64,000 bases of DNA from Eutreptiella sp. 'Long Island Sound 2002' (taxonomy: Eukaryota; Euglenozoa; Euglenophyceae; Eutreptiales; Eutreptiaceae): the NCBI GenBank assembly GCA_964036045.1, contig OZ038381.1:103731367-103795366 (forward strand), in the 5' to 3' direction. This document shows, one piece after another, positions 6,371 to 52,786 of the stretch. A program made the position numbers and the translations under genes. The first letter of the stretch is position 1. Each line of letters begins with the position of its first letter. The notes under the pieces are model-generated. The model was not told where the DNA came from, ran no database searches, and saw nothing but the letters and a program-made list of their open reading frames with translations.

Positions 6371-7490
6371 GTGATGTTCCCCAACGAACCAGGCGTCCTG
6401 TACAACGCAGCCAAAGCTCTGGACCTGCGAGACGTACCTGTGATGGCTGGATGTGACCAAAAAGCCATGTTGTGGCAGGAACAGGCCCTCAAGACCCACG
6501 TGACCCACGCCAGCCTCAGCCCCATCCTCGCCAGGACAGGGCACCAATCCTGCAACACATGGGTCAAGGGGGTGCCCATATCCCACAAAAGTGAGGTCCT
6601 GGTTCAGGTCCGCCACCACCTGGGCGTGGAAGACCGCCTGGCGACATACGAACTGGTTGCCCCGACGTGGCAGCTAAACGTATAAACGTTCATGTCCCCC
6701 TTGGAGACGCCACGAAGACATTCCTCAAACACCTCATGGAGGCCTACCGACAAATAGCCATTATTGGGCCGACTGTCATCATAGGCGACTCCAACGCAGC
6801 TCCGTCAATGGACGATCGGGGGGGGCAGCAAACGCCCGAGGACACAGCGGTGCAAATGGCCATGCAACACATGGGCCTACAGGACCTCACACCCTCCCTA
6901 GGAGGCCACCCCTCACACTGACCCCCGCAACCAGGCTCAACAGATTGCCGCATCGACCTCTGCTAAGCAGACCCGGCACACGTCGAGGTAACGCGGGCGC
7001 GATACCACGACCTGCAATTCAAGGCCACTGGAAATCGTCCCATGGAGGTACCAATAAGGGTGTTTCAAGTGCTTCCGGCCTCCAAGGAGGACGTGGACCA
7101 TGACGAACAACCACCTCTGGGGCCACCAGACGAACACGACACACACAGATGGACGCCGCACTACCGCAGGGTGCAGCACATCCTGAGGCAACAAGACAAG
7201 ACAGACCTAAACGTTGCCATGCGACAAGCGGCCACGGCGTGTGGCCTCCACGGGGGAGACACACAGGACAATGCCATCCCGCATCAGGACCTGCGATCCA
7301 TGGTCACCGCCATATGGGGCAACAAACAGGAACTACATACAGCGATACACTCCCATGACCCACAGGCCAAGCAAGACGCCCAGAACACTGCCGCACAACT
7401 GGACACCACACGCCAGCAGCTCAGGGAGTGGCACGTCCGCCGAGCGAAGGAGCTGGCACAGGAACAGCAACGCTACCTTTAAGAACCCCA
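6371..7490 (+). pseudogene. LINE apurinic-like endonuclease domain (decayed)
   Basis: Two consecutive frames, 6371-6685 and 6667-6921, carry the exonuclease-endonuclease-phosphatase type domain used by LINEs to nick target DNA. The GDSNAAPS motif near 6784 corresponds to the conserved GDxN active-site segment, and the minus-strand LINE has the matching GDLNAAP. Downstream, 7042-7482 (146 codons) is a charged linker leading to the reverse transcriptase. The domain is broken by a stop at about 6684, another at 6919-6921 and one at 7480. Everything from 6858 to 7499 is duplicated at 16661-17302, where it joins the reverse transcriptase. Confidence 0.7.
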
Positions 7491-7499
7491 AGCCCTACA
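6858..7499 (+). repeat. 642-bp direct repeat, left copy
   Basis: By eye this copy matches 16661-17302 base for base except for two C/T differences near its start (about 6900 and 6911). It ends exactly where the inverted-repeat-bounded insert begins (7500). It is LINE endonuclease/linker sequence and is continuous with the LINE upstream. The relation is that of a target-site duplication, but hundreds of times longer than usual. Confidence 0.9.
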
Positions 7500-7512
7500 C
7501 ATAGGTTTTTAA
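7500..7512 (+). repeat. Left terminal inverted repeat (CATAGGTTTTTAA)
   Basis: It is a perfect 13-bp inverted match to 16648-16660. The 14th base differs. It abuts the left 642-bp direct repeat without a gap. Confidence 0.9.
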
Positions 7513-7639
7513 AGGCAAAAGTGTTAGTTTATTCCGAAAACTAAGAAAATGGCGGAGTGACTTGTTTTGGGGCTTGAATATCATGCCAAACATGGTGCGA
7601 AAGCTATTTTGGTGCGTTGGGCACCTGCAAAATAGCGTG
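7513..7639. other. Subterminal unique sequence
   Basis: This is A/T-rich, non-repetitive sequence between the left inverted repeat and the satellite array. It includes CTAAGAAAATGGCGG. There is no coding pattern. Confidence 0.4.
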
Positions 7640-9960
7640 CGGGGGCCTTGAAAGGAGCCCCCAAGCCTAAAACATACAGATTTTTTTGCAAAATATTGGC
7701 AATTTTAGGCCATTTTTTGACACATAATGTCCTTTTTCAGGTCGAAGAGGCCCTGAAAAAGCTATTTGCTGGCTCCAATAATTTTGAATACATGTTTTTT
7801 TGCGTCAGGCATCTGCAAAATAGGGTGGGGAGGGCTTGTACTGGCCATCAGAGCCCAAAAGAAAATGTTTTCTTGCCCAAAAATTGGCGTTTTTAGGCCA
7901 TTTTTGGGCAAAAAATGGGCATTTTTAGGGGGAGCGGCCCTGAATCACCCATTTTCTAGGTTTCTAACCCTGCAACACATGTTTTTTTTTTGTCGGGCAC
8001 CTGCAAAATAGGGTGGGGGGGTGTTGAATTGACCACCCGAGCCCCAAAAACACTGGTTTTGGCCCAAAAATGGCATTTTTAGGCCATATTTGGGCAAAAA
8101 ATGACCATTTTTGGGCAAAAAATGGCCATTTTCCAAGGGGGGGGGGGGCGCTGCATCACCCATTTTCTGGCTCCCTAATCCTGCGACACATGTTTTTTTG
8201 AGTCGAGCACGTGCAAAATAGGGTGGGGGGGCGTCAAACTGACCACCCGAGCCCAAAGAACACTGTTTTTGGCCCAAAATTGGCATTTTTAGGCCTTTTT
8301 TTTGGCAAAAAATGGCCATTTTTGGGGGGGGGGGGGGCGCCCTGAATCACCCATTTTCCGGCTCCCTAACCCTAAAACACACGTTTTTTTGAGTCGAGCA
8401 CCTGCGAAATAGGGTGGGGGAGCGTCAAACTGACCACCCGAGGCCAAAAAACACTGTTTTTGGCCCAAAATTGGAATTTTTAAGCCATTTTTGGGCCAAA
8501 ATGGCCATTTTTAGGGGGGGGGGGGGGCTGATTCACCCATTTTCCGGGTCCCTAATCCTGCAACACATTTTTTTTGAGTCCAGCACCTGTGAAATAGGGT
8601 GCGGGTGCGTCAAACTGACCACCCGAGGCCAAAAAACACTGTTTTTGGCCCAAAAATGGCATTTTTAAGCCATTTTTGGGCAAAAAATGGCCATTTTTTT
8701 GGGGGGGGGGCGGCCCTGAATCACCTATTTTCTGGGTCCCTAACCCTGCAACACATGTTTTTTTGACTTGGGCACCTGCGAAATAGGGTGGGAGGGAGTT
8801 GCACTGACCACCCGAGCCCAAAAAACACTGTTTGTGGCACAAAAATGGCATTTTTAGGCCATTTTTGGACAAAAAATGGCCATTTTTTAGGGGGGGGGGG
8901 GGGGGGGCTGAGTCACCTATTTTCTGGGTCCCTAACCCTGCAACACATGTTTTTTTGAGTCGAGCACGTGCGAAATAGGGAGGGGGGGCCTTGAAATGGC
9001 CACCCAGTGCCCAAAAAACACTGTTTTTGGCCCAAAATTGGCATTTTTAGGCTTTTCTTGGGCAAAAAATGGCCATTTTGGGGGGGGGGGGCTGAATCAC
9101 CCATTTTCCGGCTCCCATACCCTGCAACACATGTTTTTTTGAGTCGGGCATCTGCAAAATAGGGTGGGGGGCCTTGAAATGGACACCCAAGCCCAAAAAG
9201 TATTGTTTTTGGTCCAAAATTGGCATTTTTAGGCCTTTTTTTGGGCAAAAAATGGCCATTTGGGGGGGGGGGGGGGCGGCCCTGAACCCATTTTCCGGCT
9301 CCCGTACCCTGCAACATATGTTTTTTTGAGTCGAGAACCTGCGAAATAGGGTGCGGGGGCCTTGAACTGACCACCCGAGCCCAAAAAACACTGTTTTTGT
9401 CCCAAAATTGGCATTTTTAGGCCTTTTTTTGGGCAAAAATTGGCCATTTTTTGGGGGGGGCGGCCCTGATTCACACATTTTCCGGCTCCCATATCCTGCA
9501 ACACATGTTTTTTTTTTGAGTCGAGCACCTGCAAAATAGGGTGGGGGGGCCTTGAACTGGCCACCCAAGCCCAAAAAACACTGTTTTTGGCCCAAAATTG
9601 GCATTTTTAGGCCTTTTTTGGGCAAAAAATGGCCATTTTGGGGGGGGGGGGGGGCTGAATCACCCATTTTCCGGCTCCCATACCCTACAACACATGTTTT
9701 TTTGAGTCGGGCACCTGCGAAATAGCGTGGGGGGGCCTTGAACTGGCCACCCAAGCCCAAAAAACACTGTTTTTGGGCCAAAATTGGCCTTTTTGGGGCA
9801 AAAAAAATGGCCATTTGGGGGGGCGGCCTTGTTTCGGGCCGAAAAATGGCATTTTTCTCCGTTTTCGGGCGAAAAATTATGTTTTTTGGTGCTGGTGGCC
9901 TCAATGGCATGCAACACATGTGCTTTTGAGTCCAGCACCCTCAAAATAGGGTAGGGAGGG
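7640..9960. repeat. Satellite array, about 188-bp units with poly-G runs
   Basis: About eleven to twelve head-to-tail units are present. The anchor CAACACATGTTTTTTT and its variants recur near 7973, 8184, 8375, 8561, 8749, 8941, 9125, 9313, 9499, 9689 and 9913, a spacing of roughly 186-211 bp (about 224 for the last). Each unit has repeated TTTTTGGGC/GGCCATTTTT words followed by a run of 7-18 G residues. The long open frames on the minus strand here are translations of the repeat and are not genes. Confidence 0.9.
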
Positions 9961-10535
9961 CAGGAATTGACCACCCGGACCTAGATAACACTGATTTGGG
10001 CCCAAAATTGGTATTTTTTGGCCATTTTTTGGGCGAAAAATGGTGTTTTTTGGTGCTGGTGGCCCTGAAACAGTTGTGAAATGGCTTCAATGGCATGCAA
10101 CACATCTTCCTTTGAGTCCAGCACCCTCAAAATAGGATACCGGGGGCACCAACTGACCACCCAGACCCAGAACACACTGATTTGGGCTCGAAATTGGTAT
10201 TTTTTGGCCAAAAAACTCAATTGTTGACAAAAATTGGCCATTTTTGGCCGATTTTTGATGAAAAATGGCAGATTTTGGTGCATACGGATGGTGTAAATTG
10301 TGTTTTCTTGATGTGTGTGTCCACACAACTTGCTTTTTCACATCCCGCACCCTCAAGCTGCTCGCCTCAGGCCAAAAACTCAATTTTTGGCTAAAAAACT
10401 CAATGAATCTTGGCCTATTTTTGATAAGAATCCCCCCCCCTTGCAAAGTCCCACAAGGGTCCCTCCCTCCGTCAAGGAGCACAGCATTCCTGCACCCAAG
10501 CCCAATACTCACACTGCATTGGACTGTATGCACTG
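9961..10535. repeat. Diverged satellite units
   Basis: The array continues with altered units. The words GCAACACATC and TTTGAGTCCAGCACCCTC recur near 10095, and TTTTTGGCCAAAAA words continue to about 10400. The G-runs disappear. Sequence becomes unique after about 10500. Confidence 0.65.
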
Positions 10536-10751
10536 GCCAGCAGAGGTTTGCTCGACGGCTTGCCAGAAAAGATGATCTGAAACACCAGAATTAAATTAAA
10601 GACCATGATCTCCATGCTCCCCAATAGGAGTGGAACTTGTTTTCAGATCCAGGAGGCCTCCATGGAGTAGGCCAGAACGGATGCCCCATAGAGAACGTTC
10701 CCAGGTATGGCCAACAAAACTAAGTAAATACAGAGGTCCTGCCAAAAGACA

Positions 10752-11388
10752 GTGCAGTGTTCACAGTGCATGCGTACGGTGTGCACAGTGTGCATGTTCA
10801 CAGTTCGTGTGTGCAGCGTGCACAATGCGTGCATGCAGTGTGCACAGTGCGTGCGTGCAGCGTGCACAATGCGTGCGTGCAGTGTGCACAGTGCGTGCGT
10901 GCAGCGTGCAGAATGCGTGCGTGCAGCGTGCACAATGCGTGCGTGCAGCGTGCACAGTGCGTGCGTGCAACGTGCACAATGCGTGCTTGCAGCGTGCACA
11001 ATGCGTGCGTGCAGTGTGCACAGTGCGTGCGTGCAGCGTGCACAATGCGTGCGTGCAGTTTGCACAATGCGTGCGTGCAGTTTGCACAATGCGTGCGTGC
11101 AGCGTGCACAATGCGTGCGTGCAGCGTGCACAATGTGTGCGTGCAGTTTGCACAATGCGTGCGTGCAGCTTGCACAATGCGTGCGTGCAGTTTGCACAAT
11201 GCGCGCGTGCAGTGTGCACAGTAGGCGCGTGCAGTTTGCACAATGCGTGCGTGCAGTTTGCACAATGCGTGCGTGCGTGCAGTTTGCACAATGCGTGCGT
11301 GCAGTGCGCACAGTGCGTGCGTGCAGTGTGCACAATGCGTGCGTGCAGCGTGCACAATGGGTGCGTGCAGTGTGCACAGTGCGTGCCG
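10752..11388. repeat. 22-bp minisatellite, block 1 (about 29 copies)
   Basis: Tandem 22-bp units consist of GCGTGCGTGCAG followed by YKTGCACAAT (or ACAGT). They are built on alternating G-C/T steps and the palindrome GTGCAC. Because 22 is not a multiple of three and the unit lacks stops, several frames on both strands stay open for about 200-260 codons. The open frames are a by-product of the repeat. Confidence 0.95.
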
Positions 11389-12027
11389 AGTGGGAGCCCC
11401 AAGAATGGCTAATTTCTGCACACAGTGGACACGGCGCCTGTTAGGCCCCCTTCCTTTATCGCTGAGCCTGCATCAAAGCCAGAGAGGGGCATCGTCTCCA
11501 TTCCAAGCTGGTGGTCCTCTCACGCACTGTGCCGGGTGTGGTACAGCGCAGCTGCAGCGTGCATCAAACCTTCAAACAGATTATCGGACGGCCAGCATCC
11601 CCCCCCTCCCCCCCCTGAACCTTCTTCATACTCCATCCCTGGTCAGCAGGTGTGTGCTTGAAAAGGAGGAGGAGGAATTGGAGATTTGCTTGTGCCAGTG
11701 CAGTTGCAGAATTCGTGGCGCCGAAACACAGTTTTCGGCTTTCTTTTTGGCCACAAGGGGAAATGACCCAAACACTTTTGCCCAAAACCAATTCGTGGCT
11801 CAGACATAAGAGAGGAGGCTAGAAGAGGGGGTCGGGGTGGAGGGGGTTAACAAACCGCCATTCCAGCACCAGACTATCACGCGTCAGTCATATGGTAGAT
11901 GGGCCTGCCCCTTTTTCTGCCTGCTCATACCCATAGGCTTTCGGTTGAAATCCATTTATACTGCCATATGATGGCCCAGATTGCCATTCATCGCCTGAGA
12001 AGGAGAGAAGGGCTGCATGCAAAAGCG
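11389..12027. other. Non-repetitive spacer between minisatellite blocks
   Basis: I see no tandem repeat and no convincing exon. Short open frames overlap on both strands. A C-rich patch occurs near 11598-11621. Confidence 0.4.
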
Positions 12028-12345
12028 CACAGCGTGCACAATGCGTGCGTGCAGCGTGCCAATGCGTGCGTGCAGTTTGCACAATGCGTGCGTGCAGCGT
12101 GCACAATGCGTGCGTGCAGTTTGCACAATGCGTGCGTGTAGTTTGCACAATGCGTGCGTGCAGTGTGCACAGTGCGTGCGTGCAGCGTGCACAATGCATG
12201 CGTGCAGTTTGCACAATGCGTGCGTGCAGCGTGCACAGTGCGTGCGTGCAGTGTGCACAATGCGTGCGTGCATCGTGCAGCGTGCACACTGCGTGCGTGC
12301 AGTGTGCACAATGCGTGCGTGCAGCGTGCAGCGTGCACAGTGCGT
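12028..12345. repeat. 22-bp minisatellite, block 2
   Basis: It is the same 22-bp unit and the same strand orientation as at 10752-11388, with a few truncated units (for example near 12055 and 12270-12285). Confidence 0.95.
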
Positions 12346-13535
12346 GGTGTCGAGTGGCTGCAGGCCATGCTGGAATTTCCCGTAAAGTGAAATTGCTGGT
12401 GTGCACAAGGCTTCTCAGCGCGAGAAAACTACTGATGAGAATGACACGGTTCATTGGACAGTTCTGTAGGTAGCAAAAAAACTAAAGCTCCATAACAAAC
12501 CACAAACTCGGATCTCCCATGAAGGGGCTACCTGTGCATGGGGAAGTCTGTGCAAACAATGAACATCACAAGGCAAGCATCCCTGCACATTGCTCCAATG
12601 ATCACTTCATTTCCTTCGCCTTCTGAAGAAACCCATCAATTACTTTTGAACATGTGCCATTTATTCCAAAACGCTCAACGATGAAGACGATCCCAGAGTA
12701 TGCAGAGAGGCGTTTGTCCAACAGCCTCCAACTGCACTTTTGACGGAAAGGCCATAAGCAAAACCCCTCCTGCCCCACCCATGCCCCAACACCCCAGAAC
12801 AACGGTTAAAAGCCCACATGAACCCTCAGCAAGCCCCACCAGCCCCAAGCAATCCTCAACACCCCTCAATACCCCTGACTGGTCACGGTCCAATACCCCC
12901 CTTTCTTGGACCGCTCCTGCCAAAATAGTCCAACTCTTGGCCAAACGAACACACGCACGACAACACAATAAATAGAGAGGCCAAAAATACCTCGGATGAA
13001 CAGGTGCACCCCTCCACCACAGCTCCACCTTGAGGGGAATAAAAAGCGTTTGCAGGCGCATCCATTATCAAGTAAGGACAGGATTGTTCCACAGGCTTGC
13101 CCATCCTTGAGAGGTTGATGAAGGAGGGTGCGGTTAGCATGTGCTGGATGTGGACTATGACCAAATGCTTCACAACTATTCATCTACGAAAATGCAAAAT
13201 GTGTTCATTGTCCAATCCTTGCAGCCAGCCCGCCCTCGAGCGGCTAGCTAATGCCCATATTGACACTGTGCCGCCAACGCACTACAGCTCTTGCCCTGAA
13301 ACCCAGCCACAGTGTGTGGTTGTGTGGGTGAAACCCATCAATTTTGGAAACCACAATCAGACTTTCCACATTGCAGCAATGTTCGGGTACGCTCCACCGC
13401 GTCCTTTCCGCTCTCTGTCACGGCACTCTTTTGTTTTCCACAACTCTCATTGTGCTCATGGTGCTTGGGCACAACTCATTTGCACATGAACATGGGACCA
13501 AAGACCAATCTGCCGCTCCCTCCTGCCCTTTCACT
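12346..13535. other. Spacer with possible captured gene fragments
   Basis: This unique sequence lies between minisatellite blocks 2 and 3. One minus-strand frame near 12602-12712 looks like a terminal exon and is listed separately. A + strand frame at 13097-13489 (130 codons) has balanced composition but no recognised domain. Confidence 0.35.
12602..12712 (-). pseudogene. Possible terminal exon of a captured host gene
   Basis: On the minus strand a frame reading LDKRLSAYSGIVFIVERFG, then INGTCSKVIDGFLQKAKEMK and a stop, looks like real protein and not repeat translation. It is preceded by a plausible 3' splice site (a pyrimidine/purine-mixed tract ending in GTGCAG near 12732). A candidate upstream exon ends with a GAG|GTATTT donor near 12990. 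I do not recognise the family. It could be a fragment of a cellular gene carried in the insert. Confidence 0.3.
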
Positions 13536-13735
13536 GTGCACAGTGCGTGCATGCAGTAGGCACAGTGTGTGCGTGCGTGCAGCGTGCACAATGCGTGCAG
13601 CGTGCACAATGCGTGCCTGCAATGTGCACAATGCGTGCGCGCAGCGTGCACAATGCGTGCGTGCAGTGTGCACACTGCGTGCGTGCAGTGTGCACACTGC
13701 GTGCGTGCAGTGTGCACAGTTGGTGCGTGCGTGCA
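13536..13735. repeat. 22-bp minisatellite, block 3
   Basis: This is the same unit and orientation as blocks 1 and 2, slightly more diverged (GCGCGCAGCG, TGCCTGCAAT variants). Confidence 0.9.
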
Positions 13736-14344
13736 ACATGGGATGTGCACGGGGCAAACGGTGCATACCATCAAGAGCCGAGGCGTGATATGTTGCTTCT
13801 TCTTGTTTTCTCTTGATGCGTTGCCCGCAAGCTCCAACATCTCGGCGCTCAAGAACTCCAACACACCAGCCACATACACAGGTGCTCCCTTGCCAACACT
13901 GGAAGAGTACCGCCAATTTGCGGGATAGACGACATTGCTTTGAGAAGAGAAGTGGAGCATCATGCATCATGCATCATGGATTGCAACCGCAGCAGAATCA
14001 TCAACCACCACAACGGCAAGCCAAACCACCACTTGAATGGAGAGATGGGACAGGCGGGCAAAAAATGACCGACACAACTGTGATATTTCCTCTGTGATAT
14101 TTCAAGTATGATATTTCTAGCATAGACCCACAAGCTCCCTAACGCTTGCTTCTGTCCTCCACCACTGGGTCGAATTTAAGCATTCCCATACAATTCACCC
14201 AAAATACCATCAATATGCAAATGCAAATGTGTGTACAACGCAATGCCAAAGGCAACAAGCAAAGGCTCAACAGATGCATGGAGTTGTCTTGTTGGGTTCC
14301 ACAAATCACTCAGGTTGGTAATCACGACGAAATCACAACAAAAT
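13736..14344. other. Unique spacer inside the insert
   Basis: No gene is recognisable. A short tandem CATGCATCATGCATCATG occurs near 13961-13978. Composition becomes A/T-rich toward the right. Confidence 0.35.
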
Positions 14345-14965
14345 CACTCTAATCCACATTTGTGGCTTCAAAAGTGGAAATATGGCTATTTAGGGGCACT
14401 TTTTGCACCCTCCGGAAGATTATCTTGAGTAAAAGGCATGTAGGGTCACAATTTGTTGCTTGGCAAGCCTAACAACGGAGCTCTAGGGAAAAATTTCATT
14501 AATGCCAAATCACACGAAAGCACAACGACATCAATGAAATCAACCATTGTGGGTTCAAAAGTGCAAATACAGCTGTTTGGGAGATTGTTGGCACCCTCCG
14601 GATAATTATCTTGAGTAAAGGTCATGTAGGGTCACAGTTTGTTGCTTGGCAAAGTTTGTTGCTTGGCAAGCCTCACCTAGCTCAAGGGACAAACTTGATC
14701 AACTTGAGATCACACGAAAGCGTGACGGTATCACTTTAATCAACATTCATGTGTTCAAAGGTGCAAATATCGCTGTTTTGGGCCTTTTTCGGCACCCTCC
14801 GGGTTATTATCTGGGGTAAAGGGCATGCACGGTCACAAATTGTTGCTTGCCAGGCCTCACGTAGCATTGAGGACAAACTTCATCAATTTGAAATCACACG
14901 AAAGCGCGACCGTATCACTTTAATCAACATTTATGTGTTCAAAACTGCAAATATAGCTGTTTTGG
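14345..14965. repeat. Tandem repeat, about 190-bp units (3-4 copies)
   Basis: The phrase TTCAAAAGTGCAAATAYAGCTG and its variants recurs near 14370, 14556, 14755 and 14939, giving spacings of about 184-199 bp. Each unit also has GGCACCCTCCGG, ATTATCTTGAGTAAA and ATCACACGAAAGC. It is unrelated in sequence to the poly-G satellite apart from its period. Confidence 0.85.
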
Positions 14966-15080
14966 GCCTTTTTTGGGCGAAAAATGGTGTTTTTTGGTCA
15001 TGGCGCCCCTGAAACACTTGTTCAGTGGCTTCAATGGCATGCAACACATCTGTCTTGGAGTCCAGCACCCTCAAGTTACG
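14966..15080. repeat. Solitary satellite unit
   Basis: The stretch has the same words as the diverged units near 10020-10130: GGGCGAAAAATGGTGTTTTTTGG at its start and GCAACACATC with GAGTCCAGCACCCTC at its end. It lies about 4.5 kb from the main array. Confidence 0.7.
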
Positions 15081-15107
15081 GGGGGCAAAATCTCACCATC
15101 CAGCCCT

Positions 15108-15506
15108 GAAATTCCCGGTTTTAGCACTTTGTGAGCACATTTAAGGTCATCCATGGTGTGTTTCGGCCTTTGAGGTGCTAAAAACGGATTTAGAGGGCTG
15201 CCACCATGAAGTAAGAGGTTGTTTTCCTTTGCAAGTGTCCAATGGTGCTCCATGCAACATATGACGCTGATTTCAAGGGTTCAAGAGGCAATGCGCATGA
15301 GTTATTCCCGGTTTTAGCACTTTGTGAGCACTTTTAAGGTCAGCCATGGTGTAGTTCGGCCTTTGAGGTGCTAAAAACGGACTTAGAGGGCTGCCACCAT
15401 GGAGTAAGAGGTTGGTTTCTTTTGCAAGTGTCCAATGGTGCCTCCATGCAACATATGACGTTGATTTCAAGGGTTCAAAAGGCAATCCGCATGAGTTATT
15501 CCCGGT
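15108..15506. repeat. Tandem repeat, 197-bp units (2 copies)
   Basis: Two consecutive copies begin with TTCCCGGTTTTAGCACTTTG (near 15112 and 15308), and a third start is visible at about 15499. The copies are nearly identical. Confidence 0.85.
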
Positions 15507-16647
15507 TTTGGTTCCCCTGTGAAATGGGTGTCATGAATCGACGATTAGATCAAGTAAACACGCCAAATCAACACCAAGTAAAAGCGACGTGAGCAAATGC
15601 AAAAGAAGGAACACATCACGTTTATCCAGCAGAGATGTCCGTTGATTCATGCCACCTCGTTGGCATGGTTGAAATGGTTGGCATAGTTGGCATGGGAACA
15701 CCCAAAAATGGGCCCCTCCAAATGCAAAAAATTGCATTTCGGATAATGGAAGATGTATGAGTCGTGCACCTACCTCAGGCCTCACCCCCGTCATCCTCAT
15801 CAACGCCTCCTTCACTTAGGTTCTTCCGGCTTCGAGGAGTCGTGACTCCTCCAGAGCTTCCCCCGAGATCTTGGCAAGATATCCCACTCTGGGTTTAGTA
15901 TCCTACTACCGGGCGTCATCACGAGAGCGCCAGCCCTCGCTCCACCTCACAATAGTTGCGAATGCAAATGGGCACCTTGGGATACACATTATTTTCCACC
16001 GGGATCACCTTCGTGTTGGAATCGTTAAATTGGAATCAAAGAGTGCTACCGGATAGGGTTAACACTAGTAACACCAGCATCGTACTTCGTCCTTCTCCGA
16101 GAATAAGGCTCCAAAAATGGCCATTTCGTGCCCAATATAGAGTCTCGGTCGGGTTTGGTTCCGTCAATTGTATAGCCAAGAAGTGCAACAAAGTCATCTT
16201 ACTTAATGTGTCCCACATAAGGACTACATGGCCACCCCTTCCAAGGTGCTGGGTGGCGTAATGTGACCCCTCTATGCAAAAAAGAAGGCCAAAAAGGCTC
16301 AAAAAGGGCTTATTTTCGTCAAAAATCCACTGGGAGGTTGGATTCGGGGGAATGTGAATACTCAGATCTATAGATGCGCTACGATCAATACTATTGAGCA
16401 ATTCACTGCTGCTCTCCCAGTGGCAGATTTTGCGAAAATGGCATTTCTTTGACTTTCATTTTGCGGCGATCGGTGCCGCGGCAGTTGCATGCGGGTACAG
16501 TCCGGCTCTGGCGATGGAACTCAAACCACAGTGATTTAGGAAATAAGAAATTGACGATTCGTTTCCCGGTTTTCTCGACAATCACGTCAGGACTGATAAC
16601 TTGAAAACGAAAATGCTACATTTCTGAATTTACAGACAAATTGGAAA
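15507..16647. other. Unique right part of the insert
   Basis: This is about 1.1 kb of moderately A/T-rich DNA without tandem repeats or a convincing reading frame. The subterminal sequence shares the word AAAATGGC with the left end. I see nothing else. Confidence 0.4.
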
Positions 16648-16660
16648 TTAAAAACCTATG
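16648..16660 (-). repeat. Right terminal inverted repeat
   Basis: TTAAAAACCTATG is the exact reverse complement of the left terminus at 7500-7512. The right 642-bp direct repeat starts at the next base. Confidence 0.9.
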
Positions 16661-17302
16661 GGCCATGCAACACATGGGCCTACAGGACCTCACACCCTCC
16701 CCAGGAGGCCACTCCTCACACTGACCCCCGCAACCAGGCTCAACAGATTGCCGCATCGACCTCTGCTAAGCAGACCCGGCACACGTCGAGGTAACGCGGG
16801 CGCGATACCACGACCTGCAATTCAAGGCCACTGGAAATCGTCCCATGGAGGTACCAATAAGGGTGTTTCAAGTGCTTCCGGCCTCCAAGGAGGACGTGGA
16901 CCATGACGAACAACCACCTCTGGGGCCACCAGACGAACACGACACACACAGATGGACGCCGCACTACCGCAGGGTGCAGCACATCCTGAGGCAACAAGAC
17001 AAGACAGACCTAAACGTTGCCATGCGACAAGCGGCCACGGCGTGTGGCCTCCACGGGGGAGACACACAGGACAATGCCATCCCGCATCAGGACCTGCGAT
17101 CCATGGTCACCGCCATATGGGGCAACAAACAGGAACTACATACAGCGATACACTCCCATGACCCACAGGCCAAGCAAGACGCCCAGAACACTGCCGCACA
17201 ACTGGACACCACACGCCAGCAGCTCAGGGAGTGGCACGTCCGCCGAGCGAAGGAGCTGGCACAGGAACAGCAACGCTACCTTTAAGAACCCCAAGCCCTA
17301 CA
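16661..17302 (+). repeat. 642-bp direct repeat, right copy
   Basis: It matches 6858-7499 except for two bases. It continues without a break into the LINE reverse transcriptase, whereas the left copy is continuous with the upstream LINE. Removing one copy plus the insert therefore rebuilds an uninterrupted LINE. Confidence 0.9.
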
Positions 17303-18460
17303 AGTCCTTGAACCACGTCGACAAAGTCCTGGGGGAAACTGGCCACCGGGGCATCAAGGCGGTGCGCCTGCAAAAGGGCACAGTGACAAACGACCCCAAG
17401 GTGGTCCTGGAAGAAGTCCTAAACAGCTTCCAACGCCAACACAATACCGAGGACGAGCAGTTATCCGCGTACACGGAGGAATTGATATCGCATTTGCCGA
17501 AACTCTACAACCCGACACAAGGACGAGACATGCACTGCACCCCGTTCACCCTTCGGGAACTGGATAAAGTACTGTACAATCTACAACCAGGAAAAATCCC
17601 GGGGGTAGACGGCCTCCCGGCAGAGCTCTACCGCAGGCTCCCACTGAACCTAAAGAGGCACTTGGCCGCGCGCCTATGGGATATCGCAATTAGGAAAAAA
17701 GAAATACCACCCGATTGAGCAAACCTGGTACACCCGCTGTACAAGAAGGGCAAGTGGGCGAAATGAGACAACTGCAGACCCATAGTGTGCGCCACCACGG
17801 AAGTCAAACTCATCTTCATGCTCATCCTCAAATGGGTGGCCCCGGCAGTATACCGCACTGTACCGCCCACGATGTGGGGTGTCATACCAAGTAGGTCGCC
17901 GCTGGAAGCCATATTTATACAAGACGCCGTGGTAGATATGGACCCGATCAGCGTCACCAGCATGACCCTGGATGTCTAGGGGGCCTTCCCCAACACCCCG
18001 CACCGCCTTGTATGAGCCGTCTGAAAACGCATGGGACTCCACTTTCAGGGTTTCCTGCACGCATACCTTGCCACCCGCATGTATGCAGTGAAAGCTGATG
18101 TGGGCACCACCCCATGGGTCCACTTCACCAGTGGAGTCCCACAAGGGGGTGCGGAGGGCTCATCTCTCTTGCTGCTCGTCAGCCCCCCGCTGTCTTTTTA
18201 CTTCCGACGCACCTACCCGGACGTGGCACCATACCCCCTACAGACCACGCTCATAGCGTTCGCGGACGACATGGCAGTGGTGACCGCCACCACCCGCCAG
18301 CCCCTGCCAACCAGCCCGGACACCGCAAGGGCCACCAAAGTACTCCATGATGTCACCAACTATCTGGAGGGCAACCAGCTACTGGTGCACAACGTCAAGT
18401 CTGCCACCATGGAACACAACGCACTACTGCCGCCGCGGAGACCCGCCCATGAACCAAGTA
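17017..18460 (+). pseudogene. LINE reverse transcriptase (decayed)
   Basis: A single frame carries the non-LTR reverse transcriptase blocks in order: PGVDGLPAELY (about 17600), CRPIVCATTEVK (about 17780), TLDV-stop-GAFPN (about 17975), SGVPQGGAEGSS (about 18130) and the catalytic FADDMAV (18259-18279). The enzyme copies element RNA at the nicked target. The frame has at least five in-frame stops (mostly TGA). Two TGA codons sit where the minus-strand homologue has Trp, and a TAG sits where it has Gln. Such stops can arise by single C-to-T or G-to-A changes. The catalytic Asp pair is intact, but the gene cannot make a full protein. Confidence 0.85.
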
Positions 18461-20160
18461 GGCACGGCCACCTACCTGGGAGTCCAACAAGCGGCCACCA
18501 AGAACGAGGTCAGCCTACCACCCAACCTGCTACGGCAGCTCAGGCAAACACTTGTCATAGCATGCATCGTGGCGCTCTCCATCCAGGCCCTGGCATACTT
18601 CCTCCAAGCCGTACTCAACGCAGCCATAGGGTTCGGAGTCCTGCACCTGACGCACCCCCAACTAATGCTGCAGGAGGCCGCTGCCACGGTACAGCGGGCG
18701 TGGGCCATCCATGGCCACCGACCCACGTCACTACCCGCTGTGGTGCGCGCTGCGTCACCACCATACTATGGGGACAACACCGATCACCTAGTCAGCAATG
18801 CCTACACGGCTCACACCGCGACCCACCTGCACCGCCTCATGCAGAACCATGAACCGGAGGTGAGGGAGGTATTCACGCTGACACTGCGAGAGGCCGAATA
18901 CCATTGCAACACATGTTCCCAGTACATACTTCATCAATGGGTCCTCCCCCCCATAGTAGGGACCCGCATATGGAACCACCTACAGCTCCTGCTACCCCAC
19001 CACCAACATGTCATCGAAACAAACCATCCGTGCAGGGAAACAGGTCCTGTGGCAATCCTACACACCGATGTGGGTGGAGGACCGACGGGGAGCATGACCA
19101 CTCTGGACCTATTCGGCACCGACCTACACCTACTACGAGTCACAACAAACGAGATGCGGGCCCTCCAGCGAGTGGGCAAACACCATGTCCCCTTCCTGCA
19201 GCACCCGGAGTGGCCTAACAAATCAGTCGCGGAAAATCACATGCAAAACGCGGCCACACCTACCGGACACCCACAGCCGACCGATGGGGAGGTACGTGAA
19301 GCGTACGATCTGTTTTGGTGCACACACAAACACCCACTACAGCGAGCCCCACCACGCAGGAACCAAGCCCACCACCGGCCGCTGGAACAAGTGGAATATG
19401 TACCGGGCACCACAGTCCCAGCGGTACTCCTCCTGGCACCCAACGGACTCAAACCCACATTGCGACGTGGCAGGGCGCACCGCAACTTGCGGATGCTACC
19501 GCCGCCCACGGCACGCAACTTCAGCCCGCCGCCACTGCCACAGAAGGCGCTGACGGGCACCCCCACCCCTTGCGGGAGATGTGGACCCCAAGCGCTGGCT
19601 ACCCCGTGGCCCCTCCTCCAACTTCTGGCAGCATATCACCACACACCAACGGCCCACGCTACGCCGGAACAACACCGATGGCTACATACACACTTCGAAC
19701 AGGCTTCGGCGGAGGACACGACCAGCGTTGCGTGCGGACCCAACACCACAGCGGAATGGAGATTCCAACAGGGAGCGTGGGACACCAAACACCCAACCAT
19801 TACCTCCCTGGTGCTGGCCAAACACCGCAGCACCACGCCGGAGGCCCCCGCCAACCCTTTTAAACACCACTGCTCCGAAGTCCAGGACTGGCAGACACCT
19901 GAATGGACCACATTCCACCCACAGAGGGCGTACCTGCTCCAATATGTGTACAGCGATGTCACGCAAGGCCACGAAGGGAACAAGGAGTATGTACGCATCA
20001 ACCGAGCAGCAACCGAGATAATCCACCAAGGAATAGGTGTCTACGCTACCCGAAGGCTACAACCGGCCATAACCACGCCATGGGCCACCGCGGAGCAGGG
20101 AGCGCAACTTCACGCCTACCACCCGATGGCGCCGTGCCGTCTGCCCCGCCTGGATGACCG
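18347..20160 (+). pseudogene. LINE reverse transcriptase thumb/connection region
   Basis: An open frame of about 600 codons follows the FADD block after a frame change. It contains the thumb-like segment (for example LGVQQAATKNEVSLPPNLLR) and a His/Thr/Pro-rich connection leading to RNase H. The minus-strand LINE has the same order (GVTQATRHHHKTLPNNLEGR at about 54150). The middle part, about 19300-19880, is low complexity. It is part of the same polyprotein. Confidence 0.6.
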
Positions 20161-20162
20161 CA

Positions 20163-20555
20163 ACACCCCCATCTTTGCGGATGCCTCCAGCACCACGAAC
20201 CTCACCCCAGCGGCTGGGGGGGGCAGCCTTCGAGCTGCGGACGGACACGGCGGGCCGACTACGCCAACGCCACCTCATGGGGGCCACCATCTTTGGACCC
20301 TCCTCGCACGGAGAACTAAAGGCGCTAGCGATCATCGTGGACGCCATCAACGACATCCACCAACAGCCGCGGGACCACACGCACGATGTGTGGGTCGTAG
20401 TGGACGCAGCGGTGGACTTCCAGATCGTCCGCAAACTGGCTTGACAGCCCCTACACAAGGGAACCGACTCCCGCCTGCGTACCCAAGCCCTTCACCTCTG
20501 GGTGGCCTAATGGCACCTCCCGAAGCATGTCGTCTTACACCTCGTCGAACAAGAG
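20163..20555 (+). pseudogene. LINE RNase H domain, split by the LTR element
   Basis: The frame has an RNase H-like start, IFADASS, with the first catalytic Asp near 20178. Then come HGELKAL with the Glu near 20310 and VWVVVDAAVDFQI with the next Asp near 20400, followed by HLVEQESHGY at 20540-20567. This matches the minus-strand LINE RNase H (YFTDASG, SLGELRTL, ISVVVDTTVD, HIVEQESHRY). It would degrade the RNA strand of the cDNA hybrid. A frameshift falls near 20210, and the domain is cut by the LTR element after codon Tyr at 20563-20565. The final stretch resumes at 23758. Confidence 0.75.
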
Positions 20556-20567: not shown

Positions 20568-21653
20568 TGATACATTTGTGGCTATGGGCTCATATGCAGG
20601 TTCATTTTTATAGGTAAAAGTATCTCCATGGAGGCCAGGAAAACTCCAGGAGTACGCTGACACTCCAGTGCAGATGTCAGCTACTCTGTGGTATCAGAAG
20701 GTAGCTTCAGCTTGGCCTGCGAAAAGCTATTTTAGTCATTTTTTTAAAGTTTTTGAAGTTTCTAAAACATTTGAAGGTTCATTGAAGCTTCAAAGTAATT
20801 AGAACCAACGGGGCGGCAGCGGGCGCCAGTTGTTGCCGTCATTTTTACGACATTATTATCATGACGGAAAATGTCTTAAATGTTCTTAAAAGCTCCAGAA
20901 AAGCTGTTTTTATATCAGTTTTTAATGAATTATGATGTATTTTTAGTGTATTTTATAGCATTTTTCAAGAAAATGCACCATCTTGCACATTTCCTACTGA
21001 CCGCCTGCTGCGACGGCCGTTCCCTCCCCTATGGGGGATATTAAGTATAGGTCCATAGGGTTTCAGAAAAAATATCAAATGGCGCCAGAATGCCCTAAGG
21101 CCTCTAGGCTGGCGCTTGGGGGGAGACCCATGTTTCAAGTTTTAACCATGTTTTCAACATGTTCATGACATTGTTTGACTTGTTTGACCTTGGTTTGACC
21201 CAGAACTGACTTACACATGTTGACAACAGCACAGTTCATGTCAACGACAGTCGTTGACGACCTGAATCTCAGGTCAGAGGGCCTGTGGTGCCCTGATTTA
21301 CTGTGATTTTTCCTCAAGATTTGACCTTAGCACATGGTTTGGTACTTAGGTATGTTTACATGTGTAATAACCTAAGTTATTGCCTTGTTTGCCCTCTCTT
21401 CATTCTACAGGATACCAGATTGTGTCATGTGCCGAGCAAAGCTTCTAGAACAATTTGTATTTGCGTGGTATTACGGAATCTCTTGTGCCTATTTGCTCTT
21501 CTAATGTGTCTTGAAGAGTGCTCACATAGCCTCTAAAATGAGTGCTCCATATGCCTCAAAAAAGACTACAAAAATGGGTTTGAAAGTCCTCCAGCTCCTC
21601 CCCATGGAGCAGATTTCAGTACCCAAGATCCAAGGGCGTACCAATACGCGTCA
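20568..21653 (+). repeat. 5' LTR
   Basis: It begins TGATACATTTGTGGC and ends ACGCGTCA. It matches 22684-23753 along its whole length with scattered substitutions and small indels. A plausible splice acceptor (TTCATTCTACAG near 21411) lies upstream of the element's ATG at 21538, which is itself inside the LTR. Confidence 0.88.
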
Positions 21654-22314
21654 AAATTGTTCTAGAGTCGATGCAGCTCTGAAGAAGAACCCGGAGTTCT
21701 TTGTGTTCTTCAAGGTCTGTGGACCCCCGGCACAAGCAACAAGAAGGAGCCGACCGAAGGAGCTCGACCTCTTCACCAAGGCCAAGATTGGACCGCAGCC
21801 CAACCAGTGGACGCCCTGGTCAGGCCTGGGGAGGCCTGGAGCAACAATACATCCAGGTATGTCCTCCACAACGTCCACCTCCTCCTCAAGTACTTGGACT
21901 GGGGAGCATCATCAAGAACGTCAAGAAAATCAAGGAATTGATCATGACCAAGATAGTCAGCCTTGGTGGGCCACTTACTCTCGCTCAGAAGCGGCGGCGA
22001 TCGCCGAATATTTTACGACCAATTCGTCAGCGACGTCCTGCGACGACAATGGGCCAGAAACCAGCCCAATAAAATGGTATGACAATGCTCCACATGAGTT
22101 TCAACAAGCCATTGATTCTTATGAATCCCAACATCACAACGATCAAGAATGTGACATGTGGAACAGCTCCAGGGAAGGTAGCTGTCGCCAGACGACGACG
22201 TCAAGAAGAAAAGAGCGTCGTCCCCTCACAGCCAAGGAGCTGGAGATCTTTGACAAGGAGATGGACAAGTTCTTCAAGAAATATAAGAGCCCCATTGGCT
22301 CTGAGAGTTGCTAA
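21538..22314 (+). CDS. LTR-element protein of unknown function (orphan)
   Basis: The ATG at 21538 gives a protein of about 258 residues. The first 38 or so codons lie in the 5' LTR; the rest is interior. It is hydrophilic, with a basic N terminus, a Ser/Thr-rich stretch near residues 108-120, several Gln/His-rich segments and a Lys-rich C terminus (LEIFDKEMDKFFKKYKSP). It has no zinc knuckle, protease or polymerase motif. It occupies the place of gag but I cannot assign it to the Gag family. The same N-terminal codons recur in the 3' LTR, where they run into LINE sequence. It might be a structural protein or the remainder of one. Confidence 0.5.
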   Translation: MSAPYASKKTTKMGLKVLQLLPMEQISVPKIQGRTNTRQNCSRVDAALKKNPEFFVFFKVCGPPAQATRRSRPKELDLFTKAKIGPQPNQWTPWSGLGRPGATIHPGMSSTTSTSSSSTWTGEHHQERQENQGIDHDQDSQPWWATYSRSEAAAIAEYFTTNSSATSCDDNGPETSPIKWYDNAPHEFQQAIDSYESQHHNDQECDMWNSSREGSCRQTTTSRRKERRPLTAKELEIFDKEMDKFFKKYKSPIGSESC

Positions 22315-22683: not shown

Positions 22684-23753
22684 TGATGCATATGTGGCTA
22701 TGGGCTCATATGCAGGTTCATTTTTATAGGTAAAAGTATCTCCATGGAGGCCAGGAAAACTCCAGGAGTACGCTCACACTCCAGTGCAGATGTCAGCTAG
22801 TCTGTGGTATCAAGAAATAGCTCCAGCTTGGCCTCGAAATAGCCATTTTGTCATTTTTTTAAAGTTTGCGAAGTTTCTAAAACATTTGAAGGTTCATTGG
22901 AGCTTCAAAGTAATTAGAACCGACGGCGCGGCAGCGTGCGCCAGCCGTCGCTGTCCTTTTTACGACATTTTTTTCTTGACAGAAAATGTCGGAAATGTTC
23001 GTAAAAGCTCCAGAAAAGCTGTTTTTGTATCAATTTTGATTTTTAGTGTTTTTTATAGCCTTTTCCATGAAAATGAACTATCTTGCCAATTTTCCAAAGA
23101 CGGCCTGCTGCCACGGCCGTTCCCTCCCCTATGGGGGATATTAAGTATAAGTCCATAGGTTTTCAGAAAAAATATCATATGGCGTCAGAATGCCCTAAGG
23201 CCTCTAGGCTGGCGCTTGGGGGGAGACCAATGTTTCACGTTTTAACCATGTTTTCAACATGTTCATGACATTGTTTGACTTGTTAGACCTTGGTTTGACC
23301 CAGAACTGACTTAGACATGTTGACCACAGCACAGTTCCTGTCGACGACAGTCGTTGACGACCTGAATCTCAGGTCACAGGGCATGTGGTGCCCTGATTTA
23401 CTGTGATTTTTCCTAAACATCTAACCTTAGCACATGGTTTGGTACTTAGGTACGTTTACATGTGTATTAACTTAAGTTATTGCCTTGTTTGCCCTCTCTT
23501 CCTTCTACAGGACAAAAGATTGTGTCATTGGGCAGGCAAAGCTCCTAGAACAATTTGTATTTGCGTGGTATTACGAAATCCCTTGTGCCTACTTGCTCTT
23601 TTAATGTCTCTTGAACAGTGCTCACATAGCCTCTAAGATGAGTGCTCCATATGCCTCAAAACAGACCACAAAAATGGGTTTGAAAGACCTCCAGCTCTTC
23701 CCCATGGAGCAGATTTCAGTACTCAAGATCCAAGGGCGTACCAATACGCGTCA
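22684..23753 (+). repeat. 3' LTR
   Basis: It begins TGATGCATATGTGGC and ends ACGCGTCA. It is the second copy of the 5' LTR, 16 bp shorter. Confidence 0.88.
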
Positions 23754-23757
23754 ATAC
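23754..23757 (+). repeat. Target-site duplication ATAC, right
   Basis: It repeats 20564-20567. LINE coding sequence resumes directly after it. Confidence 0.75.
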
Positions 23758-33651: not shown

Positions 33652-35190
33652 GTGATTCAAACACGGATGTCACACCTCAGGTACAAAGATTTCCTAATTT
33701 GGGTCCACGAAAAGGCAGTGCCGGCAGAAGTGCCCGCGCTGGAAACGTGGTGCAAATGCTTTCCATCGTATGAAAGGATGGTCGCTACGTGGGAACGCCT
33801 CGCCTCCGTTCAACAGCTGGAGGCAAAGATTCATGACCCTTCGGCAGGTTAAGATTCGGCGGCGGAAAAGTTTGTAAGTGTGTTTTGGCCCTTTGAGGAC
33901 TTTTTGGAGTATTTCTCCTCCCAACCGGATCTAATGGATCTGGTTGGTATGGAATTTCACGAGCCAGACTACCGCGATGTACTCATCGTCCGAGAAGATG
34001 AGTTTCCATGCGGTGCCCGCCCACGGTGTCAACCACGGGGAGCGTCCTCGGAGCATTAACTACACCTGGACCTGGGATTTGTCACTTTGCTCCAAGCACA
34101 ATGTAGAGGCTCTTCGGGATTTAATGCCACACAACTTGGAGCGCATCCAACATGTTCTAGACAATCGTTACATTGTGTTGTGTGGTTATGCGGTTGATTG
34201 TAGATGCATCGTCGGGGGTGATTCACCTTGGCTTCGCCATGCCTTCGGGTTGAGTGTATGGTGGGGGGTGGGGTCTCTCTACACATATGCGATGTGGAAT
34301 GCGGCGGGCAACCAATGGGAACACACTACCACGGTCTGTTCCTGGAAGGGGCAGAAATTTCTCAAAATTCTTCAACGGAGTCCGCCAAACGCTACCGTGT
34401 CCGGTTTTTTTGGGTGCATCCGCCTGCCTCCTTTGAAAGTGCAGGACCGGTATTTTTTAATTGTCATGTGCATTTTGCACTGTTTAATTTCTGTGGGCAA
34501 GCAAACCACGATTTACGTGCGCCGCTACGCCAAGACGGTGGCACGGGCCGTGCGTGCTGAGGTCCAAAGAATTTTGACCAATGCAAATACGATAATCTCG
34601 CTCCAAGGGAAGGCCAGCCCAAAGGGTGAGGAAACATGGCGTCTGTTGATTGTGTGGCCGGCAATCGCTCATTTGTTGCATGTGCCCCGTACTGCACAAA
34701 AGGCCGTGATTGCGATGGGCAAGCTGTGGCAGCTCTGTACTGTAAATATCAGAAGCCCTCTACACTTAAGTGTGCCAAAGTAGCGCGTAGGCTTCAGGAA
34801 GAAATTTGCCCGGGTCTTCGCTCGCCATATCTGTTATGGCTTCGCCGTGATGCACACAGGGTACTGGATGCCATACGCCCTTGGGGATGTGCGATGTTTT
34901 CGGGGGATGTTGTGGAGTCGCTGAATGCTTTGTTGAAGGACTCTTTTTTGACTGCCACGTCTCGGGGAGGGAGGAAGGGCACACCGGAGGAGCGACTCAT
35001 TGAGTTACCCTTCCACGCAATGAGCTGTGGTTTCTTGCACAACGAAATGCCACGTTGGAGGGAGGTGCAGAGCCTGGGTGCTCTGCAAATCCAACATTCT
35101 GCGGACGTTGCTAGGGAGTACTTGGGGGAAACGTTGGAGAGTCGGTGTTGTATTCCCATGGGACCACGGGGGGGGGGTAATTTGTCACTG
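33652..35190 (+). pseudogene. Transposase-like gene A, main part (decayed)
   Basis: After the intron the frame reads RYKDFLIWVHEKAVPAEVPA, then EDFLEYFSSQPDLMDLVGME, then (frame change near 34040) SINYTWTWDLSLCSKHNVEA and NLERIQHVLDNRYIVLCGYA. Further frame changes follow, with a last open part 34636-35190 containing LYCKYQKPSTLKCAKVARRL, YLLWLRRDAHRVLDAIRPWG and FSGDVVESLNALLKDSFLTA. The combination of a Cys-bearing middle and a conserved-looking VVESLNALLKD helix resembles transposase-type proteins of algal elements, but I cannot assign a superfamily or catalytic triad. A TAA near 33850 and at least three frameshifts mark it as a pseudogene. Confidence 0.4.
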
Positions 35191-35195
35191 CGCAT

Positions 35196-35388
35196 ATTAT
35201 TTTGGTCGGTTGGAATCCGTTTGAATCAATTCAAGTGCTTCAAGTAGGACATTTGAATCACGTAGGGCTATTCAAGTGTCATTCAAACGTCGTGTATTTT
35301 ACATGTTTTGACCCGTCCGCTGCGTGGTGGTGTTCTCGTTGGGCTTCCTCCGTCAATATTCCGGTGTACATTAAAGGGCCTGTTGTCA
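35196..35388 (+). other. TTCAA-rich stretch between gene A and gene B
   Basis: From about 35210 to 35290 the sequence is packed with GTTTGAATC, AATTCAAGTG, CTTCAAG, TTTGAATCACG and CATTCAAACG. It may be an intron joining A to B or the A/B intergenic region containing the B start. A GC-rich segment follows up to the ATG at 35389. Confidence 0.4.
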
Positions 35389-36318
35389 TGGCGGGACTGG
35401 ACCAAGCGCTGTCGGGCTTGGCCTCGGGTCAGCTGCAGGCGATCGTGGCGGCAGCGCAATGCAAACTGCAAGCAGTTCCGACAACTGGCTCAACGTCCGC
35501 TTCAGCAGCTGTTGATGTCGCCGTTCACGACACCAAGATTCTCTTTCCACCCGTCTTTCCCATGTTGCCAGATATGTCGAACGGGCGCTTCCCCCACCCA
35601 GAGTCCGGGCTCGCACGGGCCGGTCCCGGGTTCGGGTGGCTCACCGACATAACCGCGAGATACCTCTTCAAACAAACGTTCTACATCTGGAAACACAAGC
35701 GGGGCGGTGCCACGTTGGCTGGTCAGACCGTGTTTCCGTGGGAGACGACTCCACTGTCATGGTCCGACTGGCAGGGTTGGAAAGTTGCCAGCGTCGGATT
35801 GGGCACCAATGGAAAAACGACGTTTGATGCACACCAAGTTCAGCGTCTTTCTGAGATGTGGAGTCACCACGGACTGGGAACTGTGGCTCCTGGGGGGATC
35901 AATACCCACAGCCAATCATATGGGCCGAAGTTCTGGTTGAAAAACAAAGATGAGATCGACCCTGACTGGCATCCAGCGGAGGGAGTGCAGCTCACAACGT
36001 CCTCGGTGCGCAAGGTGGGGGGGACCATTTCGACTGGCGGGAACAAGGAGAGGCTGCAGGGCTTGATTGGTGAGCTCGAGGTAGACGGGAGCGAGCAGCC
36101 GGAGAAAAAGCAGCGGCGTACGATGGGCGCATCAGCATCCGCATCAGCATCCGCCGTTGTTGCCCTGCCTTCCGCGACTCCAGCCGAGTCTATGGGCATG
36201 GAGGCCGTGGTTGACGAGTCGCTGCACGTACTACCCTCGGTGATCAAGCAGGAGTCGCAGGACGAGATGATGGCCCCCACAGCCGGTCCATCCGCTGCCC
36301 CGGCGCTGTGCCGGTGTG
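35389..36318 (+). CDS. Gene B exon 1, unknown protein
   Basis: The ATG at 35389 opens a frame of about 310 residues starting MAGLDQALSGLASGQLQAIV. It is Ala-rich and helical at first. A globular part follows, with many Trp residues (ITARYLFKQTFYIWKHKRGG, TTPLSWSDWQGWKVAS, QVQRLSEMWSHHGLGTVAPG). The C-terminal third is charged and disordered with an Ala/Ser repeat (ASASASASAVV). The exon stays open to a probable donor near 36318. The Trp-rich part may bind nucleic acid, but no family is recognised. Confidence 0.5.
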
Positions 36319-36478
36319 TGATGCTCTATAGGTTCAAACCTGTCTTGTGTACTTCAAACGCAATTCAAATGCCTCCTGTGTGGTTCAAGCGTGATTCAAG
36401 CCCGGCTTGTGAACTGCGTTTGAACTATCGGTGTGACGTTTGAATCACGGTTGAATTTCGTGTCACCGTCTCCAACAG
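36319..36478 (+). other. TTCAA-rich intron of gene B
   Basis: It contains GTTCAAACC, CTTCAAACG, ATTCAAATG, GTTCAAGCG, ATTCAAGC, GTTTGAAC and TTTGAATCACGG, and ends with a pyrimidine-mixed tract and CAACAG at 36478. The donor is probably the GTGTGTGATG near 36314. Confidence 0.55.
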
Positions 36479-45234: not shown

Positions 45235-45488
45235 CTCCCGCCCCATGCCAAGGTCTCTGACAGTGTGGTGATTCCTAGTGAGGCTTGCAGTGAGGCAGAG
45301 AAGGGGATGCTGATGGCGAGGATAACAACTCTGCAGATGACCCTGGTAATGATGACTCGGAATACACGGGCAAAGGTACGGCAAAGCTCAAGAAGTCGAC
45401 CAAAAAAAAGGCAGTTGAGCCAGAGGGTGCTGACAGCGGTGAGGATGCACCTCAGAGCGGGAGCAATTTAGAGACAAAAAGTAAGAAG
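45235..45488 (+). repeat. About 254-bp direct repeat, left copy (gene C acidic exon)
   Basis: It aligns with 56270-56524 at roughly 88% identity (about 29 differences counted by eye). It encodes SDSVVIPSEACSEAE, then, after a 1-nt deletion relative to the right copy, the acidic DNNSADDPGNDDSEYTGKGT and a Lys-rich part. It ends exactly where the LINE's (GTAG)n tail starts. Confidence 0.8.
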
Positions 45489-52186: not shown

Positions 52187-52786
52187 TTAAGCGCCCTGTG
52201 GAAGGGGTAAGTCCGCAAGGCGCTTGGAGAGGTGGATGTCGACCGTGGTGTCTACGACTACCGAGATGTTGGGGGGCCGGATTGTTGTGGGTGGTAGTGT
52301 GGCGGTGACGGCGTCCGCCAGGGTGCGCAGCTCGCCGAGCGAGGACGCCCCGAAGATGGTGGCCCCGTCGTGGTGCTCCGCCTGGAGGCTGTCTGCGCGC
52401 CGGGTGATGAGCACAGAGGCACAACCGACTGTGGGCGTGCGCTGCTGGGGGCCGGATGCGTCAGTGAAGTAGATGATGTCTGTGGTGCTGGGTACGGGTA
52501 GGCGGGCAATTGCTGTGGGGTGATAGATGTATACGGGGTTCCCTTGGGCGGTTCCGGTGGTGGTTTGCGTAGGTTGCAGTAGCGGTGTGGCATAGACGCC
52601 TATCCCCTGGGGAATGATGGCCTGGGCCCGTGGGGTGAGGCAGGGGAGGCCCCTGTCGGGACGCCCGTGGGTGATGTACACACACCCTTCAGGTGGAAGA
52701 GGGATCCCGTATCGGGGTGGAACTTCTGGCACGTGATGGTCTGCCGCCGTTCCTTTTCTTCTTTGTCGCCGCGGAGGGTGGGGCAT
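52187..52786 (-). pseudogene. LINE RNase H domain (minus copy)
   Basis: Within this 199-codon frame, YFTDASGPQQRTPTVGCASV gives the first catalytic Asp, FGASSLGELRTLADAV the Glu and NISVVVDTTVDIHLSKRLAD the next Asp, the expected RNase H order. It is preceded by a connection segment (IPQGIGVYATPLLQ) also seen in the + strand LINE (IHQGIGVYATRRLQ). It degrades element RNA after first-strand synthesis in active relatives. Confidence 0.75.

Follow-up and report, generated by a model that had tools for sequence, protein, structure and literature searches.

In the window, that is, the whole stretch of 64,000 nucleotides that was analysed (C4:103731367-103795366), a 9-kb DNA transposon copy lies within a LINE, between two near-identical copies of a LINE segment of about 640 bp. 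This structure probably results from one-ended transposition, in which one end of the element would have been joined normally, whereas host repair would have attached the trimmed second end 640 bp upstream. The assembly does contain this structure, at a single locus that is known from the assembly alone. What had been supposed to be a 642-bp target duplication becomes a testable natural case, probably of one-ended DNA transposition with a long local duplication, and genome annotators could mistake such a structure for a long target duplication. Of more interest than the duplication in the window is the surrounding family, whose copies point to a 1-bp target duplication.

The interrupted LINE and its duplicated segment

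The segments 6858-7499 and 16661-17302 are direct repeats of 642 bp with two mismatches (640/642 identical, 99.7%; 0-based offsets 41 and 52 within the repeats), exactly as described in the original prediction, and they are the only two copies of this repeat within the window. The 9161 bp between them start with CATAGGTTTTTAA and finish with its reverse complement, giving perfect 13-bp inverted termini, as was also predicted; the inverted repeat of the window copy does not extend further inward. At up to two mismatches, this 13-mer is found four times in the window (0.58 expected), and the two exact occurrences are the two termini. That the inverted repeats adjoin the direct repeats holds for these 13-bp termini, but the ends of related elements are 15 bp (see below), which shifts the boundary by 2 bp. 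Because the 15-bp terminal repeat is present in the 24 relatives counted, the element is delimited as in Table 1 and the LINE duplication is about 640 bp long. The final CA of the left 642-bp repeat is, judged from these relatives, probably the first two bases of the element, and the LINE itself carries CA at the matching place. Here the paralogs L059 and L060 read CCCTACAAGTCC, and L061 reads CCCTAGAAGTCC, with GA and not CA.

Table 1. Features of the interrupted LINE and of the element within it (window positions).
Feature	Position	Strand	Remarks
Duplicated LINE segment, left copy	6858..7497	+	Runs on from the upstream LINE; agrees with 3/3 paralogs at both differing sites
Left terminal inverted repeat, CACATAGGTTTTTAA	7498..7512	+	Normal-looking, after target ..CCTA; CA in 23/24 relatives
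DNA transposon copy	7498..16660	+	No recognised transposase
Array of ~190-bp tandem units within the element	7607..10245	+	Matched in relatives
22-bp tandem repeat within the element, in three blocks (10752-11386, 12030-12346, 13535-13730)	10752..13730	+	
Right terminal inverted repeat, 13/15 bp, without the terminal TG (abnormal)	16648..16660	-	TG in 24/24 relatives
Duplicated LINE segment, right copy	16661..17300	+	Differences at 16702 and 16713, both derived here
CA of the LINE itself	17301..17302	+	Same as the first two bases of the element, by chance or microhomology
LINE, onward into the reverse-transcriptase region	17303..20230	+	Right limit: end of homology with the window's other LINE

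The duplicated segment is internal LINE sequence, and the LINE is continuous to the left and right of it, as had been claimed. When the insert and one repeat are removed, the resulting empty site (6518-10427) is collinear at the protein level with the minus-strand LINE at 52412-56215, and three genomic LINE paralogs (88-90% identity) cross both junctions uninterrupted at the DNA level, without the insert and with the duplicated segment present once. In a search of the genome (2.28 Gb, 2205 contigs), the next-best match to the segment has 90% identity among the 40 places scored of 568 candidates, whereas the two window copies are alike at 640 of 642 positions, which indicates that the duplication arose locally. 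Comparison with the three paralogs places both changes in the right copy, and both sit within 53 bp of the abnormal right joint. At the insertion point, the right copy is the same as two of the three paralogs and has no footprint.

The left joint of the element (..CCTA, then CACATAGG) is like those of relatives, and the opposite flank differs. The right end finishes with CCTATG, without the TG, and the GGCC.. that comes next is formed by the first bases of the duplicated segment; clear microhomology was not seen at the right joint. Two readings of the anatomy were rejected. An LTR-type element does not fit, given that the direct repeats are LINE sequence, and insertion exactly at the joint of an older tandem repeat would make the exact abutment a coincidence, with only two repeat copies in the window.

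Elsewhere in the window, a pair of direct repeats of about 1.09 kb (20568-21654 and 22684-23754; 90% identity), separated by 1.03 kb, is situated after the reverse-transcriptase part of one LINE and before the following GC-rich stretch, and 255-bp direct repeats (45235-45488 and 56270-56524; 89%) flank the GC-rich minus-strand LINE. Pfam comparison of the 26 window ORFs outside the element returned only sub-threshold matches, to RVT_1 (18121-18411) and to Auxin_canalis (E 0.00024), the latter in a 420-aa open frame on the plus strand (35181-36443). Neither Rfam families (at gathering scores) nor tRNAs were detected in the window.

Ends and target duplication of the transposon family

The 13-mer is present at 236 places genome-wide and its reversed control at 346; because the former number is not above the latter, many of the 236 places are probably due to chance. 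Pairing by hand among 100 listed places of the 236, on contigs C1-C3, gave 25 convergent pairs that are 0.7-11.7 kb apart, and with 236 places in 2.28 Gb (about one per 10 Mb), pairs so close are unexpected by chance. Both ends of all 25 pairs, which were thus taken from three contigs and required to carry an exact 13-mer at each end, were fetched with 1500-bp flanks. The pair L041/L042 was left out of the 24-copy counts that follow, as it has other internal sequence beside its ends. Other genomic copies share the ends of the window insert, rather than having unrelated ones, and the insert is therefore a real transposon.

In the 24 copies, after normalisation of orientation, the 13-mer is preceded by CA at the left end in 23 (by GA in L009) and followed by TG at the right end in all, which indicates that the terminal inverted repeat of the family is the 15-bp sequence given in Table 1. 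The next base outward is equal on both sides in 22/24 copies (exceptions, L037/038 and L043/044; binomial p ~1e-10 at a chance rate of 0.28), and a 2-bp match across the element is found in 2/24. Judged from the sequences of these 24 copies on C1-C3, the family makes a 1-bp target duplication, at targets that lean toward CC at -6,-5 and GG at +4,+5. Two copies located in tandem repeats provide natural empty sites, and at these sites the model of 15-bp ends with a 1-bp duplication restores the repeat best (scores of 140 versus 137 and 117 for the two alternatives at L020, and 130 versus 122 and 106 at L021); at L018, the score is 23 under all three models. Insertion into CATG with a 0-bp duplication was rejected: of the three models, it had the lowest score at each of the two informative repeat sites, and the bases at -3 and +2 match as a direct repeat in 22/24 copies.

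Of the copies read, only the window copy has the near-identical 640-bp duplication. The original prediction had suggested a genome search for similarly bounded segments, and in none of the 25 pairs does a near-identical long repeat adjoin both ends (1500-bp flanks compared); in 22/25 pairs, no direct repeat was found between the 1500-bp flanks (blastn E<=1e-3). The remaining three have repetitive flanks, namely a 50-bp repeat at 80% that does not adjoin the ends (L018), mainly 79-bp units that do not adjoin the right end (L020), and a GGGGCA-type array at ~81% that reaches both ends (L021). L009 has an irregular outer base pair yet no long duplication, and a changed end alone is therefore no proof of a one-ended event. 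The frequency of abnormal ends among other copies is not given by the 25 pairs, because they were chosen by exact 13-mers.

When the window element is aligned with L055 in 21 blocks of 500 columns, 18 blocks are 98.8-100% identical and the other three 96.2-97.6% (indels aside), and this high identity makes the window copy look young. Its ~190-bp units are matched in the 24 family copies compared, and the number of units seemingly varies between copies. The excluded pair L041/L042 (C3:80367700 to 80376159), which has other neighbouring sequence (AACCCCAAAG...) and CA in its right flank, may represent a related family or have paired by chance; there is another 13-mer nearby, at C3:80366593.

Origin of the flanking duplication

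The window structure has one end that is joined normally (CA at the left end after the target CCTA, with a different flank on the other side), a second end that is truncated (TG absent, and present in 24/24 relatives), and flanking host DNA that is duplicated locally over a long stretch. The same combination is known from retroviruses, and it is on this likeness that one-ended transposition is taken as the most likely origin. In aberrant one-ended HIV integrations, according to excerpts of the source, one end is normal and the aberrant end is often, although not always, truncated; host DNA is most commonly duplicated at the aberrant end, the duplication usually being far longer than 5 bp and reaching as much as hundreds or thousands of bp (PMC5041404). 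The window case is like these HIV and ASLV integrations in its normal end, truncated second end and duplicated flanking host DNA, and unlike them, as far as the excerpts describe an inhibited or mutated enzyme, in being a natural DNA-transposon insertion in a eukaryote (PMC5041404). Given that one-ended integration yields the same anatomy (PMC5041404, in the excerpted part), the two nicks about 640 bp apart, or the undescribed replicative mechanism, that had been proposed for this locus are unneeded.

By one-ended transposition, a recently active DNA transposon, whose 15-bp inverted repeats start with CACATAGG and which duplicates 1 bp of its target, would have inserted into a dead LINE. The left end would have undergone normal strand transfer after ..CCTA; at the right end, transfer would not have occurred at the paired position, and the last two bases (TG) would have been lost. 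Host repair, either end joining or replication-based repair, would then have joined the trimmed right end to a sister chromatid or homologue that lacked the element, at a point 640 bp upstream, so that the 640 bp separating the two joints would be present on both sides. Error-prone repair synthesis from the right joint may have introduced the two clustered changes in the right copy, although these are weak evidence of such synthesis, being only two and noticed afterwards.

An alternative that we consider unlikely is that both ends were joined normally to different target copies, by hybrid element insertion or by crossover between allelic copies 640 bp apart. It fits a single element flanked by two segment copies and a duplication of local origin, and P-element hybrid element insertion yields flanking rearrangements (PMC3744419, PMC2775673, in excerpt). 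Yet both routes predict an intact right end, whereas the window element lacks the TG that 24/24 relatives have, and allelic crossover additionally requires two insertions within one LINE. The absence of TG could be a later mutation, and two normally joined ends would then fit. The window resembles P-element hybrid insertion and maize Ac reversed-ends transposition in that duplications are bounded by transposon termini, and differs from both in that intact termini are expected there, as far as the excerpted accounts go (PMC3744419, PMC2775673). In the same excerpts, an element initiates each repeat in Ac reversed-ends transposition (PMC3744419, PMC2775673), whereas here the LINE is continuous upstream of the left copy. 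An assembly artefact, in which two haplotypes or copies that carry the element at different positions were fused inside it, seems to us quite unlikely. A repeat-rich 9-kb element could mislead the assembler, and the junctions are known from the assembly alone, but the 40 places scored, out of 568 candidates, include no second near-identical LINE copy, and the two segment copies differ at few, clustered positions, observations that count against a fusion without excluding it. Decidedly unlikely is a history of two events, namely normal insertion and tandem duplication of the LINE segment with the element, followed by precise loss of the second element, because this requires precise excision and an additional event; it would make the right joint a duplication joint, thereby accounting for the absent TG, and it agrees with the state of the right LINE copy at the insertion point, which is that of two of the three paralogs, with no footprint.

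The part of the original prediction that concerned an insertion with a long duplication is retained, but 642 bp as the target-site duplication of the transposon is not, with 1 bp in 22/24 relatives. A true 642-bp target duplication from nicks 642 bp apart would agree with the repeats adjoining the 13-bp termini on either side. With such a staggered cut, other members of the family should show the same duplication and the ends should be intact, and neither held: none of the 25 pairs read has such a repeat and the right end is not intact. This explanation is therefore not supported and is hardly credible. Recombination between dispersed LINE paralogs that carried the element at different places could draw on an LINE segment with at least 40 scored places and on a repeated element, but the segments are 99.7% alike and the next scored paralog 90%, which contradicts such an exchange unless a near-identical paralog is unscored or missing from the assembly, and leaves it a next to negligible probability. 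For HERV-K (HML-2), excerpts report target duplications of 111 and 250 bp, with discussion of rearrangement and the term 'pseudo-TSD' (PMC5488345). The window is like these in having long direct repeats around an element of a short-duplication family, and unlike them in that HERV-K is retroviral and in that the segmental-duplication recombination considered in those excerpts (PMC5488345) is unsupported here, the next scored copy having 90% identity.

Coding capacity and comparison with RAG1 and Transib

As had been noted from the start, no transposase is recognisable in the window element: Pfam comparison of its 10 ORFs gave three sub-threshold matches. The two end 20-mers of the element have 0 matches in viral contigs. 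An 11,058-bp family copy (L049, with L050; C2:185279072-185290129) has three long reverse-strand ORFs of 316, 595 and 642 aa, the 642-aa one being Q-rich. Four ORFs of long copies have no Pfam match at E<=1, three homologues (P0127, P0123, P0126) match no Pfam family at E<=10, and the transposase profile, compared with the sequences of solved structures, had one match only, to myoneurin (E 0.87). Only one named relative was found, a transcript of the MMETSP collection (marine microbial-eukaryote transcriptome).

With modest confidence, a homologue of an ORF in the longer relatives is predicted to have a RAG1/Transib-like fold, among the fold families that were listed. P0123 has D, D and E residues and CxxC and HxxxxH zinc ligands at the spacing of RAG1: D133-C152 (19), C152-C155 (3), H352-H357 (5) and H357-E377 (20) are equivalent to D708-C727, C727-C730, H937-H942 and H942-E962 of RAG1 (PMC4914335, in excerpt), with a mismatch in the first interval, D56-D133 being 77 and D600-D708 of RAG1 108. 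E377 is located in a region with pLDDT under 50, with E374 as an alternative candidate. The first D is replaced by N in P0126, and some motifs are absent in 4/8 homologues (P0121, P0122, P0126, P0128).

The PHIS transposases (Harbinger, ISL2EU, Spy) make no duplication or one of 1-4 bp, according to excerpts of the source (PMC10045372); this length is compatible with the 1 bp of the family, and the three homologues examined have no Pfam match at E<=10. The same three likewise give no Pfam family for CACTA, Chapaev or Mirage at that threshold. The phrase '1-bp target site duplication' was unmatched in the literature, which is no sign that such duplications are unprinted.

It is possible, although on balance doubtful, that the family is an undescribed lineage with a RAG1/Transib fold, CACA termini and a 1-bp duplication that was recently active, and that its propensity for one-ended transfer generates local host duplications, as a relative of the V(D)J recombinase might. 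A predicted RAG1/Transib-like transposase in combination with CACA ends and a 1-bp duplication would bear on the spread of V(D)J-recombinase relatives and on what determines the length of target duplications. Transib ends and RSS carry CAC, and the target duplication of Transib is 5 bp. The family differs from Transib in its duplication of 1 bp in 22/24 copies, and from both Transib and RAG1 in having no Pfam match; common to all are the fold, which is predicted for the family, the spacing of the second D, zinc ligands and E, and CAC at the ends of the elements.
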